Shown here: piece by piece, positions 37,824 through 47,906 of the stretch
Position numbering within the stretch: the stretch's first letter is position 1
Layout: every line of letters begins with the position of its first letter
NCBI RefSeq assembly: GCF_024599795.1
Contig: NZ_CP102246.1
Span: 1,488,001 to 1,552,000 of the forward strand
DNA length: 64,000 bases
Source: Enterobacter cloacae complex sp. R_G8
GTDB lineage: Bacteria; Pseudomonadota; Gammaproteobacteria; Enterobacterales; Enterobacteriaceae
Direction: 5' to 3'
Notes under the pieces: generated by a model
What the model was told of the DNA's origin: nothing
The model's input: only the letters and a program-made list of their open reading frames with translations
Databases searched by the model: none
Position numbers and translations under genes: made by a program

Positions 37824-37841
37824 TCAGGAGGGATGAACGTC

Positions 37842-40176
<2,335 letters not shown>

Positions 40177-43208: not shown

Positions 43209-43234
43209 GCCCGGTGGCGCAGCCGCCACCCGGC
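43209..43234. repeat. REP-like palindrome, family B
   Basis: GCCCGGTGGCG-CAGC-CGCCACCCGGC is a compact hairpin lying between the convergent hda and M17 aminopeptidase stop codons. It may act as a boundary or transcription end for both. Confidence 0.78.
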
Positions 43235-44655
43235 TAGAGATCTCCCATCAAGTGCTCCACCAGCAGCGGAATCGGCCTCCCTGAGGCCACGCTTCTGCCA
43301 CCCTCACGCCACAGCGCTGTACCGCTAATGTCCAGATGCGCCCACGGGATTGTCGGCGGGCAGAAGTGATGCAGCAGCCACGCTGCCGAGGCGCTGATTG
43401 CCGCATTGTTGGGCGGCGTATTGCAGAGATCGGCGATGGCGCTGTCAGTCTGCTTTTTCAGCCGCGCATTCAGCGGCAGGGACCATACTTCATCTCCACT
43501 CTGTTTTCCTGCCTGCGTCAGCGCCTGGCGCAGCGGTTCATCCTGGGTCATCAACCCGCTCAGTTCATATCCCAGCGCTTTGACCACCGCACCCGTCAGC
43601 GTTGCCATATCGATAATATAGCGCGCCTGCGGATGGCGCTGGCTGGCCCAGGCGATAGCGTCTGCCAGCACCAGCCGGCCTTCTGCATCGGTATTGTTGA
43701 TTTCAACCGTGGTGCCGTTGCAGGCTCTGGCTACCGTGCCAGGCTGCATGGCGTCCGGGCCGATGGCGTTTTCTGCCAGCGCCAGCACGCCCATGAGGCG
43801 CACGGGGAGCGCCAGCTCTGCAACGGTCAGCATCAGCCCCAGCACATTCGCCGCGCCGCACATGTCATATTTCATGGTGTACATGCCCGCGCCGTCTTTG
43901 AGCCACAGGCCGCCGGTATCGAAGGTAATGCCTTTACCTACATAGCAGCGCACCGGGCCGTCAGAAACACCGTCATAGTGAATAGCCAGCAGTCGTGGCG
44001 GGCAGGAGGCGCCTTTGCCAACGGCGTGAAGCAGCCCCAGACCCTGTTCAACGATCTGCTTGTCATCCAGCACGTCACAGCGCAGGGCAGGGAAAGCCGC
44101 GCACAGCGTCTGCGCCTCCTGCACCATAAACTGCGGCGTGCAGCGGTCGGAGGGGATATCGGCCAGACGGCGTGCGGCGACCATTCCACGGCTAATGGCG
44201 AGCTGCTGGCGGAAGATAACGTCCAGCCGCGCCTGCTGTTCTGGCAGGCAGAGGGCGGTAACGTGCTCAACGCGCAAAGTGACATCGTCCGCTTTCTTCA
44301 GCTGCAGATCGCTAAGCCTGTGCGACTGATTAAAAAGAAAACGCAGGAGCTGTTGCAGCACAACGTCGTCAATGTGGGTGACATCCAGCACTACGTCGGT
44401 GCTGACGGGCGTCGCCAGCAGCGGGCGGAGGGCGGTGAGTAATCCTTCAGTCAGCCCGTCATGCCAGAGTGCATCCGGCACCAGGGTGATGCGTGCAAAG
44501 GGCGCACAGCCAAATCGGGTGTCGGCAACGGCGTCCTGTCCGCGCATTTCCGCAATCAGCGGAGTGTCCGGCAGCAGCGGGCACGCGCTGCGGGCGATGA
44601 GATGGCTGTGTGGAGTTGCCTCTGAAAGGTCCGTTATTAGCTGATACGTCATCAT
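43234..44655 (-). CDS. M17 leucyl aminopeptidase family protein
   Basis: A 473-residue M17 aminopeptidase. The two-zinc site is complete: Lys241 and Asp246 in 'GKGITFDTGG', Asp264 in 'MKYDMCGAAN', and Asp323/Glu325 in the signature 'NTDAEGRL'. The catalytic Lys253 and Arg327 are also present. It differs from housekeeping PepA and PepB in its divergent N-terminal domain. It is the last gene of the operon with PTS EIIC and glycosylasparaginase, starting 2 bases after the upstream stop with a GGAGTA ribosome-binding site. A role in trimming peptides linked to the imported substrate is inferred. Confidence 0.9.
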   Translation of the reverse strand: MMTYQLITDLSEATPHSHLIARSACPLLPDTPLIAEMRGQDAVADTRFGCAPFARITLVPDALWHDGLTEGLLTALRPLLATPVSTDVVLDVTHIDDVVLQQLLRFLFNQSHRLSDLQLKKADDVTLRVEHVTALCLPEQQARLDVIFRQQLAISRGMVAARRLADIPSDRCTPQFMVQEAQTLCAAFPALRCDVLDDKQIVEQGLGLLHAVGKGASCPPRLLAIHYDGVSDGPVRCYVGKGITFDTGGLWLKDGAGMYTMKYDMCGAANVLGLMLTVAELALPVRLMGVLALAENAIGPDAMQPGTVARACNGTTVEINNTDAEGRLVLADAIAWASQRHPQARYIIDMATLTGAVVKALGYELSGLMTQDEPLRQALTQAGKQSGDEVWSLPLNARLKKQTDSAIADLCNTPPNNAAISASAAWLLHHFCPPTIPWAHLDISGTALWREGGRSVASGRPIPLLVEHLMGDL

Positions 44656-44657
44656 TA

Positions 44658-45611
44658 TTACTCCTCAATCGGGGCGCGGATCCGTGCGGCATAGGCCTGC
44701 ATCCATTCATCATCCACCGCCTGATAGTGCGTTTTTTCCCGCAGGCGTTCGGCGCGAAACACGGTCAGCGGCTGGCGCGCGGTCGCCACCACAAACGAGA
44801 ATGTTTTGATGTTGGTGGCGGCGCCAAATTCACCTTTGTTATTCATGCATACCACGGAGAGATCGCCCGCGCGGCCAAAACGCGACATCAGCTTGTCTTC
44901 CAGCTCGAACACCACGGAATCTGCCGCCTGCTGCGGAGACATCCCCTGCGCCATGCGGCGAACAATTTCGTAGCTGGTGCAGCCTTTCATCAGATCTTCG
45001 CCCACGCCCGTGGCGGTGGCGGCGCCAGTTTCACTGTCGCAGTAGAAGCCGGAGCCGATGATCGGTGAATCGCCAAGGCGGCCGCGCTTTTTCATAAACA
45101 GGCCGCTGGTGGAGGTGGCCACGCTCATGGATCCCTGTTTGTCGAGACCGATAATCCCGACGGTGTCATGACCATCGTAGGGGCTTAAGCCTTTATCCAG
45201 CGTCTCCCGGCAGCGCTTGCGGTAGTGCTGCATGGCCCGGTCGGTGAGCATCGTTTTGTCGGCAAAACCCTGGCTCAATGCCCACTCCCGCGCGCCCTGG
45301 CCGACCAGCAGGCTGTTATAGCGCTGGCGGCTTAACGCCTGCGCCACGCGCACCGGGTTGGCGATATCCACCAGATTTCCCACGGCGCCAAAGGCCAGCG
45401 TGTCGCCATCCATGTAGGCGGCGTCCAGTTCCACCTCGCCATTTTCGGTTGGTAGCCCGCCGTAGCCGACCGATTTATAGAACGGAAAGTCCTCGACGGC
45501 GGCAACGGCATCCACGACCGCGGCAGCCACCGGTTTTCCTGCTGCCAGCGCAGAGGCCGACTCGGTGACGCCTTCAAGCGCCATTCGCCAGGTGGCGATA
45601 ATTCCCCACAT
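44658..45611 (-). CDS. Glycosylasparaginase/isoaspartyl-peptidase-family Ntn hydrolase
   Basis: A 317-residue Ntn hydrolase of the asparaginase_2 family. The autocleavage site and nucleophile are Thr150 in 'YDGHDTVGIIGLD', so alpha and beta chains of about 149 and 168 residues are expected. Substrate-binding 'GRLGDSPIIGSGFYCD' and 'ATATGVGEDLMK' are present. The HDTVG nucleophile context is that of N4-(beta-N-acetylglucosaminyl)-L-asparaginase rather than plant-type asparaginase. It has no signal peptide, unlike secreted relatives. The gene lies 3 bases after the PTS EIIC gene, so the substrate is probably imported. Confidence in the family is high, in the exact substrate moderate. Confidence 0.88.
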   Translation of the reverse strand: MWGIIATWRMALEGVTESASALAAGKPVAAAVVDAVAAVEDFPFYKSVGYGGLPTENGEVELDAAYMDGDTLAFGAVGNLVDIANPVRVAQALSRQRYNSLLVGQGAREWALSQGFADKTMLTDRAMQHYRKRCRETLDKGLSPYDGHDTVGIIGLDKQGSMSVATSTSGLFMKKRGRLGDSPIIGSGFYCDSETGAATATGVGEDLMKGCTSYEIVRRMAQGMSPQQAADSVVFELEDKLMSRFGRAGDLSVVCMNNKGEFGAATNIKTFSFVVATARQPLTVFRAERLREKTHYQAVDDEWMQAYAARIRAPIEE

Positions 45612-45614
45612 GCT

Positions 45615-46934
45615 TTACTCCTGTTTTGCAAGGGTGGTGTCGGTTTGCGTCACGGTGGCAATCTCCGCGGTGCGGTACTGTTTATCCACGATACGCATGA
45701 AAGGCAGATACAGCATGGCGCCAATCAGCAGGTTGATAAGCTGCATGATGCTGCCGCTGAGATGCCCGGTGACGATAAAACCGCTGATAACAGGCGGCAG
45801 CGTCCAGGGGATAAACACCCCGGTGGTGACGGCGACCGCACCAATTTTCATTGCCACGTACTGCACGGTGACCAGCACCAGCGGCACCAGATTGAACGGA
45901 ATGAGCATGATCGGGTTCATGATCACCGGCAGGCCGAACAGAATAGGCTCGTTGATGTTAAACACCGAGGCTCCCGCGCCCAGGCGTGCCACTTCGCGCA
46001 TGTTTTTACTGCGGGTGAAAATCAGCATCGCAATCACCAGCGACAGCGTGGCCCCTGCGCCGCCCATCCAGATCATGTCAAAAAACTGTTCGGTGATAAT
46101 GTGCGGCGGCGTGGCGCCGGCCTGAATAGCGGCGATGTTATCGGTCTGGTTCTCCATCCACAGCGGGCGAATAATGCCGTTGATCATCGAACCGGAGTTA
46201 ATGCCCACAGACCACAGAATGGTGATGCTGAATACGGTCATCAGCGCGCCAAAATAGGAGGTACCGTAGTGGCGAACCGGGGTTGCCACCACCTCGTAAA
46301 TAAACTGGTGGATGGTGTTGTAATGGGTGTTTTCAAAGCCGATGCGGATAACCAGCACCAGGATCATCACCAGCAGGGCAGGGATCAGCGCCGCGAACGA
46401 CTCCTGCACCGCAGGCGGTACGCCATCCGGCATTCTGATAACCAGTTTTTTGCGCTTCAGCCAGCAGAACAGCTCCGTCCACAGCAGAGAACCAATCATC
46501 GCCACAAACAGACCCTTACTGCCAATCCACTCTACCGGCATGACGGTGATGCCGCCATTTTCTGCCACTTTGATAAAAGGAGTCAGGATCAGAAAGGCGA
46601 CCAGCGCCAGGATGCCGCAGGAGATACGGTCTTCGCCATAGTGTTCAGCCAGGCGGTAGGCGACCAGGAAGCTGATAAACAACGACATGGTCGAGAACAC
46701 CGCGTTGAACGGGATTTCGATAATCGCACTCCAGCTTTCCCCAAACGCCTGAGACATAAACTGCTGATAGGTTTGATTGGGGAAGGAGGAGATCACCAGC
46801 AGGATGGAGCCAACGATGATAAACGGCATGAATGAAACGTAGGCACCGCGAATGGCACCAAGATGACGCTGCTGGGCCGTTTTGGCCGCCAGCGGCATTA
46901 GTTTTGCTTCAAGAAATCCCAGAACATTGTTCAT
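45615..46934 (-). CDS. PTS EIIC component, lactose/cellobiose (CelB) type
   Basis: A 439-residue membrane protein of the PTS EIIC lactose/cellobiose family, with about 10 helices, 'FMPFIIVGSILLVISSFP' in helix 1, and the family segment 'VFNINEPILFGLPVIMNPIMLIPF' containing the sugar-binding Asn-Glu. No EIIA or EIIB gene is next to it, so it must borrow these from another locus. It is first in an operon with the glycosylasparaginase and M17 genes, which hints at a glycosyl-amino-acid substrate. A candidate CRP site lies upstream. Confidence 0.92.
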   Translation of the reverse strand: MNNVLGFLEAKLMPLAAKTAQQRHLGAIRGAYVSFMPFIIVGSILLVISSFPNQTYQQFMSQAFGESWSAIIEIPFNAVFSTMSLFISFLVAYRLAEHYGEDRISCGILALVAFLILTPFIKVAENGGITVMPVEWIGSKGLFVAMIGSLLWTELFCWLKRKKLVIRMPDGVPPAVQESFAALIPALLVMILVLVIRIGFENTHYNTIHQFIYEVVATPVRHYGTSYFGALMTVFSITILWSVGINSGSMINGIIRPLWMENQTDNIAAIQAGATPPHIITEQFFDMIWMGGAGATLSLVIAMLIFTRSKNMREVARLGAGASVFNINEPILFGLPVIMNPIMLIPFNLVPLVLVTVQYVAMKIGAVAVTTGVFIPWTLPPVISGFIVTGHLSGSIMQLINLLIGAMLYLPFMRIVDKQYRTAEIATVTQTDTTLAKQE

Positions 46935-47010
46935 TGTGAACTCCGTACAAGATTGAGAGGTGTTGTTTGTGTTATCTGTGGGGATTATCAGTGAAGCGCG
47001 GCGAGCGAAA

Positions 47011-47026
47011 GGTGAAATCGGTCACA
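47011..47026. promoter_or_regulatory. Candidate CRP site in the PTS/regulator divergent region
   Basis: GGTGAAATCGGTCACA matches TGTGA-N6-TCACA at nine of ten positions. It lies about 77 bp upstream of the EIIC start, midway in the 147-bp divergent gap, a normal position for CRP activation of a PTS operon. Confidence 0.55.
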
Positions 47027-47048
47027 AAGCAATCGCTGATGCATGATA

Positions 47049-47062
47049 AATCTCATAAGATT
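47049..47062. promoter_or_regulatory. Small perfect dyad upstream of the transposase-like regulator
   Basis: AATCT-CATA-AGATT is a perfect inverted repeat 20 bp before the regulator start codon. It could be an autoregulatory operator; there is no other support. Confidence 0.3.
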
Positions 47063-47081
47063 AGTTTCAGGAATTGTTGCG

Positions 47082-47906
47082 ATGGAAATCAAACTGCACG
47101 CCAATGCGACCACGACGCCGCGCATCCGCCGCTATCTTCAACAGTCGGATAAGAGCGACAGAGAGCTGGCCGTCGAGCTGGGCATTTCAGTCACTACCGT
47201 CAGACGCTGGCGTAATCGAGACCAGGTGTCGGATAACCATACGACGCCGAAAGTGATACACAAAGCGATGAGACAAGAGCAGATTGCGCTGGTGAATGCC
47301 CTGCGTGATATCCTGGGGGCACCGCTGGATGAACTGCTGTTGATGGTCAACGACGTACTCGGAATCGCCGTATCCCGCGCTACCCTGAACCGCTATCTCA
47401 AACCGGCCGCAGCAAAGCAAAAAGGGGCCCCCTTGCAGGGAAAAAAGGCGCTGAAAGCGGGCATCAGGCCACATATGCTGGAACTTCATCATTTGCCGTT
47501 GTCGCTGCATATGGACGACGGTGGAGAGCAACATCTGCTGTGGGCGCGAGAGCCGGTGAGCGGCTGGTGCTATGCCAGGCTTTATGCGGGACTGTCGCCT
47601 CAACGACTGAATACCTGGACGCAGGAGGTGCTGGCGGCATGTCCGGCTGCTATACAATCTATTGAGACTTTTGGTTTTGAGGCGATGCTGGCTGTTAACG
47701 ACATTACGGTGAAGGCACATCAACGTACCTGCAGTGCACTTCAGGTGATGGTGCCCTTACGCGATATTATTCCGCGAGTGAATGTTGAACCGCCGGGTGT
47801 GTTATTGATGACCTTGTGCGAGTTTTACAACCGGGGTAAGGCGCAGAAAAAGCTGGGGGAAAGTACGCCGCAGGCCTTTCTGGAAGGGCTGCGGCGCGAG
47901 GTTTAA
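47082..47906 (+). CDS. IS481-transposase-like helix-turn-helix protein, probably domesticated regulator
   Basis: A 274-residue protein built like a short IS481-family transposase. Residues 10-52 form the helix-turn-helix ('RELAVELGISVTTVRRWRNRDQVSDN'), followed by 'PLDELLLMVNDVLGIAVSRATLNRYL', which matches the linker of such transposases. The retroviral-integrase-like core is shortened. An Asp remains at 145 ('LHMDD'), but the 'TDNG' Asp is replaced by 'IETFG' near 195, and the Glu region is missing. The C-terminal 'EFYNRGKAQKKLGESTPQAFL' keeps the 'YN...LG..TP' transposase tail. It is divergent from the PTS operon, so a regulatory role is likely. No IS ends were seen. Confidence 0.72.
   Translation: MEIKLHANATTTPRIRRYLQQSDKSDRELAVELGISVTTVRRWRNRDQVSDNHTTPKVIHKAMRQEQIALVNALRDILGAPLDELLLMVNDVLGIAVSRATLNRYLKPAAAKQKGAPLQGKKALKAGIRPHMLELHHLPLSLHMDDGGEQHLLWAREPVSGWCYARLYAGLSPQRLNTWTQEVLAACPAAIQSIETFGFEAMLAVNDITVKAHQRTCSALQVMVPLRDIIPRVNVEPPGVLLMTLCEFYNRGKAQKKLGESTPQAFLEGLRREV

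Follow-up and report, generated by a model that had tools for sequence, protein, structure and literature searches.

The window analyzed here, a stretch of 64,000 nucleotides from Enterobacter cloacae complex sp. R_G8 (family Enterobacteriaceae; contig NZ_CP102246.1, positions 1,488,001 to 1,552,000; host genome 4.95 Mb, one contig), carries three genes on the same strand that code for an enzyme IIC (EIIC) of the phosphotransferase system (PTS), an N-terminal nucleophile (Ntn) hydrolase and an M17 aminopeptidase (Table 1). The gaps are 3 bases between the EIIC and hydrolase genes and 2 bases between the hydrolase and M17 genes. The operon is flanked by hda on one side and an arsC-family gene on the other, and shares its upstream region with a divergent gene. 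An earlier annotation from the bare sequence (the original prediction) had proposed a tight operon of a cellobiose-type EIIC, an Ntn hydrolase with an HDTVG nucleophile motif and a complete M17 aminopeptidase, preceded by a candidate CRP site. All of these elements were confirmed in the window, and the Pfam models PTS_EIIC, Asparaginase_2 and Peptidase_M17 scored far above cut-off. The range given there ended at 47906 and includes the divergent gene, which was left undescribed and appears to belong to the operon's system. We read the locus, at a probability of roughly 0.78, as a catabolic operon for a glycosyl-asparagine, most likely N-acetylglucosaminyl-asparagine (GlcNAc-Asn) released when N-glycoproteins are digested, with glyco-dipeptides as possible further substrates.

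Table 1. Features of the putative glycosyl-asparagine operon (window coordinates)
Feature	Position	Strand	Remarks
PTS EIIC, lactose/cellobiose family	45615..46934	-	439 aa; TIGR00410, 3QNQ match
Glycosylasparaginase-family Ntn hydrolase, probably cytoplasmic	44658..45611	-	317 aa; Asparaginase_2
M17 aminopeptidase, possibly glycopeptide-trimming	43234..44655	-	473 aa; Peptidase_M17
Helix-turn-helix (HTH) and integrase-fold protein, divergent, probable regulator	47043..47906	+	conserved start = ATG at 47082
CRP-like site, divergent promoter region	47011..47026	.	centre ~84 bp before EIIC start

Linkage of the genes in other genomes, one of the checks proposed with the original prediction, was analyzed in the best 80 of 208 loci from a scan of genome contigs with the hydrolase (loci and genomes carry our own L and G numbers). 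The EIIC, hydrolase, M17 and divergent genes were found together in all 47 close loci (L003-L048 and L064), whose records are titled Enterobacterales except for L048. The hydrolase was detected at E 1e-50 in 33 of 295 genomes from the family, and 32 of these carry the operon (the window, 9 of 10 more distant loci and 22/22 further loci, some of the latter from the same species as the close loci), the sole exception being G264. Linkage in close, distant and further loci rules out a chance gene order. Enterobacter and Lelliottia have proteins that share up to 97-98% identity with the window hydrolase; blastn with the hydrolase gene matched none of 5,426 E. coli genomes. Two loci are unusual: in L040 (Trabulsiella odontotermitis) the M17 and divergent genes look truncated and EIIC and hydrolase align over their full length, and L048, titled Chryseobacterium sp., has the operon in an Enterobacterial uraA-hda setting, so that its assembly may be mixed or mislabelled.

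The nearest solved relatives of the hydrolase are the Elizabethkingia glycosylasparaginases (1.7e-54 for 1P4K), with isoaspartyl peptidases at about 1e-33. Residues Trp8, Asp149-Thr150, Arg178, Asp181, Thr201, Gly202 and Gly204 of the window protein match the Elizabethkingia enzyme. GHDTV is found in 57/57 Enterobacterales hydrolases, and the Asp-Thr autocleavage site with its nucleophile in these 57 and in 33/33 Firmicutes rows. Trp11, Thr170, Arg180, Asp183, Thr203, Gly204 and Gly206 (Elizabethkingia numbering) are kept in the same 57 and 33 rows, one Firmicutes row ending short of the Trp11 column; Thr203 we take to belong to the active-site list of glycosylasparaginases. Trp11, Arg180, Asp183, Gly204 and Gly206 are named as glycosylasparaginase residues in the accessible part of PMC13204146. 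The columns of Glu48 and Arg49 hold Tyr-Lys in 56/57 Enterobacterales and 33/33 Firmicutes rows, and the columns of window residues 175-176 are basic in most rows, a combination that would suit a phosphorylated sugar. By eye no signal peptide was seen in the hydrolase; a crude hydropathy scan, however, marked part of its first 40 residues as apolar.

A hydrolase of this Pfam family could instead be an isoaspartyl peptidase or asparaginase that recycles damaged peptides together with M17, EIIC being unrelated, and some database entries are indeed named isoaspartyl peptidase/L-asparaginase. The genome has a separate IaaA-like paralogue elsewhere, 36% identical to the hydrolase, with Tyr at the Trp11 column and Gly before the nucleophilic Thr where the hydrolase has Trp and Asp. 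The isoaspartyl peptidase model NCBIfam PRK10226 gave the hydrolase 115.5 bits against a cut-off of 567. Together with the nearest solved structures, the PRK10226 score and the Trp11 and Asp residues led us to reject the isoaspartyl peptidase assignment of the protein; as the linkage to EIIC is also conserved, we regard the recycling explanation as a whole as very improbable. The hydrolase is thus placed in the glycosylasparaginase family, with putative activity on GlcNAc-Asn.

EIIC scored 436.5 bits with TIGR00410 (cut-off 236), and the one solved relative found by sequence was the Bacillus cereus chitobiose EIIC 3QNQ (2.8e-110). Its residues His250 and Glu334 are, we presume, involved in sugar phosphorylation. 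The Glu334 column holds Glu in every EIIC row. The His250 column holds Asn in the window EIIC, in 56/56 Enterobacterales and in 16/16 hydrolase-linked Firmicutes EIICs (leaving aside three further ones shortened by contig ends), and His in all five other EIICs of the host genome. As a control, EIICs were searched in 12 genomes (11 Firmicutes and Providencia), and 30 of the 74 matches were taken as loci, giving 29 usable proteins. Asn was present in 12/12 hydrolase-linked proteins, which are already in the counts above (ten linked by a hydrolase at <1.5 kb, L204 and L205 by coordinates); of the remaining 17, all lacking a hydrolase at that distance, 15 had His and two had Asn, namely L213, from a cluster that resembles ega and includes GrdB-like and M42 genes, and L218, whose surroundings are unrelated. 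A single origin of the change was rejected when row L211 was included (p 0.0015) and not rejected when it was left out (p 0.22), in tests on a 54-row tree less 9 and 12 long or unsure rows, with Enterobacterales as 15 rows and the tested group named after the first tree. The Enterobacterial EIICs clustered with the B. cereus chitobiose EIIC at a Shimodaira-Hasegawa-like approximate likelihood ratio (SH-aLRT) of 92. If the proposed function is right, this residue change would be a sequence mark for glyco-amino-acid transporters.

Neither EIIA nor EIIB was found inside the window operon. Providencia (L047) and the genomes G126, G228, G171 and G287 have both genes after M17, as part of the operon; in the same place, EIIB alone was found in G019 and G250, and neither gene in G071, G192 and G267. 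The in-operon pairs of Providencia and of 4/32 operon genomes indicate that this EIIC is part of a PTS. The host genome has three Lac-type EIIAs, belonging to chb, to a beta-glucoside set and to an orphan EIIB-EIIA pair located between a diguanylate cyclase gene and rpoC (genes named by eye); the 14 kb viewed around the pair contained no EIIC. Orthologues of the orphan EIIA (>=78% identity) were counted by hand in 67/295 genomes. They occur in 28/28 operon genomes whose operon has no EIIA and in 0/4 whose operon has one, counts that leave out G264, whose hydrolase is 47% identical and whose cluster is of another type, and include G074, whose contig ends about 200 bases past M17, so that a downstream EIIA is possible there. 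Fisher's test on this distribution used 27 and 4 genomes, and genome kinship is uncorrected in these tests. The 78% cut was our choice, and a laxer one would bring in more hydrolase-free genomes, though none of the four with an in-operon EIIA; in genomes with an in-operon EIIA the best match to the orphan EIIA was 59% (G287), the other three giving none at 1e-28. EIIB adjoins the orphan EIIA in all 30 loci viewed. Fifteen of these loci come from the 28 operon genomes; the remaining operon genomes were scored for EIIA only. These results suggest that the partners of EIIC are probably the unlinked orphan EIIB-EIIA pair beside rpoC.

The M17 protein scored 344 bits with Peptidase_M17 and reached no NCBIfam equivalog cut-off. 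It can be aligned with solved M17 enzymes over the stretches GKGITFDTGG, DMCGAA and NTDAEGR, and the catalytic and metal motifs are complete in 54/56 orthologues, the exceptions being the truncated-looking L040 protein and that of L047. Its role is possibly the trimming of glycopeptides.

Related hydrolases were also analyzed in 33 Firmicutes loci (L049-L082, omitting L064). Several of these are cut by contig ends, L052-L055 are near-copies from one strain, and neighbour families were named from one representative per cluster. A Lac-type EIIC is present in 19/33 and an M20 peptidase in 25/33, with M42 peptidases in four and an aspartase/fumarase-type lyase in six. The occurrence of M17, M20 and M42 peptidases beside the same hydrolase suggests that peptide trimming matters. 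The use of a glycosyl-asparagine or glycopeptide, as originally predicted, is supported by the conserved linkage, the glycosylasparaginase-like hydrolase and the many Firmicutes relatives beside Lac-type PTS and dipeptidase genes, an arrangement shared with the ega locus of Enterococcus faecalis. Two further neighbours were observed in the Firmicutes. A CutC-family protein, which might handle the 1-amino-sugar product, is linked to the hydrolase in 22/33 loci (e.g. L050:8028-8660). A half-length GrdB-like protein (glycine reductase component B family) is found in 17/33 (e.g. L050:5425-5946) and also in a second PTS cluster, one that lacks the hydrolase (L227:5417-5944).

The G264 genome has a different arrangement (L167:4936-9223), in which a hydrolase paralogue, 47% identical, has as neighbours a glucose-family EIICB, a NagB-like protein (154.8 bits, under the nagB cut-off of 236.9) and a convergent LacI-type regulator; no nagA was recognised beside the NagB-like gene. 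This cluster is a third transport variant. A scan of viral contigs with the G264 paralogue led nowhere.

The divergent gene has one match per genome, adjoining the operon, in 32/32 operon genomes, which rules out a passing insertion sequence. Fold comparison assigned to its product an integrase-type RNase H fold (the retroviral-integrase fold), the matches listed covering residues 123-274 and barely any of the N-terminal part. NCBIfam IS481 gave 41.1 bits against a cut-off of 224, and no conserved DDE triad was seen by eye in the alignments. Being a single-copy neighbour in all operon genomes, this HTH/integrase-fold protein probably regulates the operon. If so, it would be one of few known bacterial integrase-fold proteins turned catabolic regulator; among the matches listed in a literature search there was no bacterial IS481-derived regulator. 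The CRP-like site reads GGTGA-N6-TCACA, and a TGTGA-N6-TCA core is kept in 46/47 related loci, its centre lying 83-98 bp before the EIIC start (84 bp in 33/47 rows).

In the pathway that we infer for the substrate, its phosphorylation and its regulation, EIIC and the EIIB/EIIA encoded elsewhere would import GlcNAc-Asn and phosphorylate the sugar at C6, so that the hydrolase would meet a phosphorylated substrate. M17 would strip adjoining amino acids if a peptide is imported. The hydrolase, a self-cleaving enzyme by family, is expected to split the amide to give aspartate and 1-amino-GlcNAc-6-P, the latter yielding GlcNAc-6-P and ammonia. NagA and NagB, whose genes nagA and nagB are present in the host genome, would convert the sugar to fructose-6-P. 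Transcription would be under the divergent integrase-fold HTH protein and CRP. The scheme in its most specific form, in which a PTS with the Asn signature feeds 6-phospho-GlcNAc-Asn to a phospho-glycosylasparaginase under a dedicated, transposase- or integrase-derived and probably catalytically dead regulator, is tentative, and we would sooner expect it to fail in some part than to hold throughout.

Several observations weigh against this reading. No CRP-like site was found in Providencia. According to the accessible part of PMC6960285, 1-amino-GlcNAc is not metabolizable and is unstable at acidic pH, and a Lactobacillus casei pepV mutant grew like the wild type on 6'FN-Asn. In our view, the decay of 1-amino-GlcNAc may need help in the near-neutral cytoplasm of Enterobacter. 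The orphan EIIA occurs in 38/262 genomes without the hydrolase, the host genome has three other Lac-type EIICs with no adjoining EIIA, and in 2/30 viewed loci (L136, from operon genome G262, and L137) the orphan pair lies next to a different EIIC, indicating that the pair is not dedicated to the operon. EIIC might accordingly work free of phosphorylation, or be served by chb or another EIIA/EIIB, the orphan pair acting for other EIICs. The Asn at the His250 position and the presence of chb and another complete set in the genome would fit, but the in-operon EIIB and EIIA of L047 and L161-L164, the complementary distribution of the orphan EIIA and the retained Glu334 speak against it, and we consider this alternative somewhat unlikely.

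The last point against GlcNAc-Asn concerns the sugar itself. The window hydrolase has Met, Tyr, Lys and Ser where the Elizabethkingia enzyme has Phe13, Glu48, Arg49 and Gln254, so the sugar side of its site differs from that enzyme; Gln254 is described as not highly conserved among glycosylasparaginases (PMC13204146, accessible part). Another asparagine-linked sugar (glucosyl-Asn, chitobiosyl-Asn or a bacterial-type glycan) might thus be used with the same import and cleavage logic, as the grouping with the chitobiose EIIC, at an SH-aLRT no higher than 92, and the G264 variant, having a NagB-like protein and no adjacent nagA recognised, could also suggest. On the other hand, L. casei AsnA2 cleaves GlcNAc-Asn, and the title of the cited Enterococcus faecalis paper discussed below names this compound; a different sugar therefore seems unlikely, more so than a different partner for EIIC. 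If the operon does serve GlcNAc-Asn, many Enterobacter, Lelliottia, Kluyvera, Citrobacter and Klebsiella oxytoca-group species would use the core stub of N-glycoproteins as a carbon and nitrogen source, a capacity whose key gene had no DNA match in the 5,426 E. coli genomes. Elsewhere in the window, a ROK-type protein and a GH1-type beta-glucosidase (named by eye) are encoded at 37833-40176 (+), before upp and uraA.

The Salmonella fra locus, named in the original prediction as a loose precedent, serves the use of fructose-asparagine with enzymes and a transporter unlike those of the window operon. It holds as a case of sugar-asparagine use, but two loci omitted there are closer precedents, ega and alf-2. 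Also omitted were the operon's want of EIIA and EIIB, the probable regulator and the likely phosphorylation of the hydrolase substrate. Among the matches listed in a literature search, which left most subscription papers uncovered, there was no Enterobacterial operon of this kind, and the accessible main text of a pan-genome paper (PMC12361417) does not contain 'asparaginase'.

The ega locus of E. faecalis, as far as described in the accessible part of PMC11160706, encodes the glycosylasparaginase EgaG, lactose/cellobiose EIIB and EIIC, a dipeptidase, a GntR regulator and an oxidoreductase pseudogene; the title of Combret et al. 2024, known to us as a citation, names GlcNAc-Asn. Like the window operon, ega joins a glycosylasparaginase to a Lac-type EIIC and a peptidase. 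It differs in its in-locus EIIB, dipeptidase and GntR, in place of which the window operon has M17 and an integrase-fold neighbour but lacks both EIIB and EIIA; neither an EIIB nor a GntR gene was found among the six window-locus genes scanned. The window operon would work like ega without these three components, and is therefore not classed as an ega member. In the accessible part of PMC6960285, AsnA2 of the L. casei alf-2 locus acts on GlcNAc-Asn, with aspartate and 1-amino-GlcNAc as proposed products. The window operon resembles alf-2 in combining a glycosylasparaginase, apparently without a signal peptide, with a permease and a peptidase that would act on a glyco-amino acid, whereas alf-2 has a major facilitator superfamily (MFS) permease, a fucosidase, a decarboxylase, a sugar kinase and no PTS. 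The secreted Elizabethkingia glycosylasparaginase (1P4K, 4R4Y) shares family, nucleophile and Asn-binding residues with the window hydrolase and differs in its signal peptide (PMC13204146, accessible part) and in the residues at 13, 48, 49 and 254. A PTS-glycosylasparaginase locus is thus already known in ega, and an MFS version in alf-2; what is new here is the orphan EIIB-EIIA pair as probable partners, the Asn signature of EIIC and the integrase-fold protein as probable regulator.

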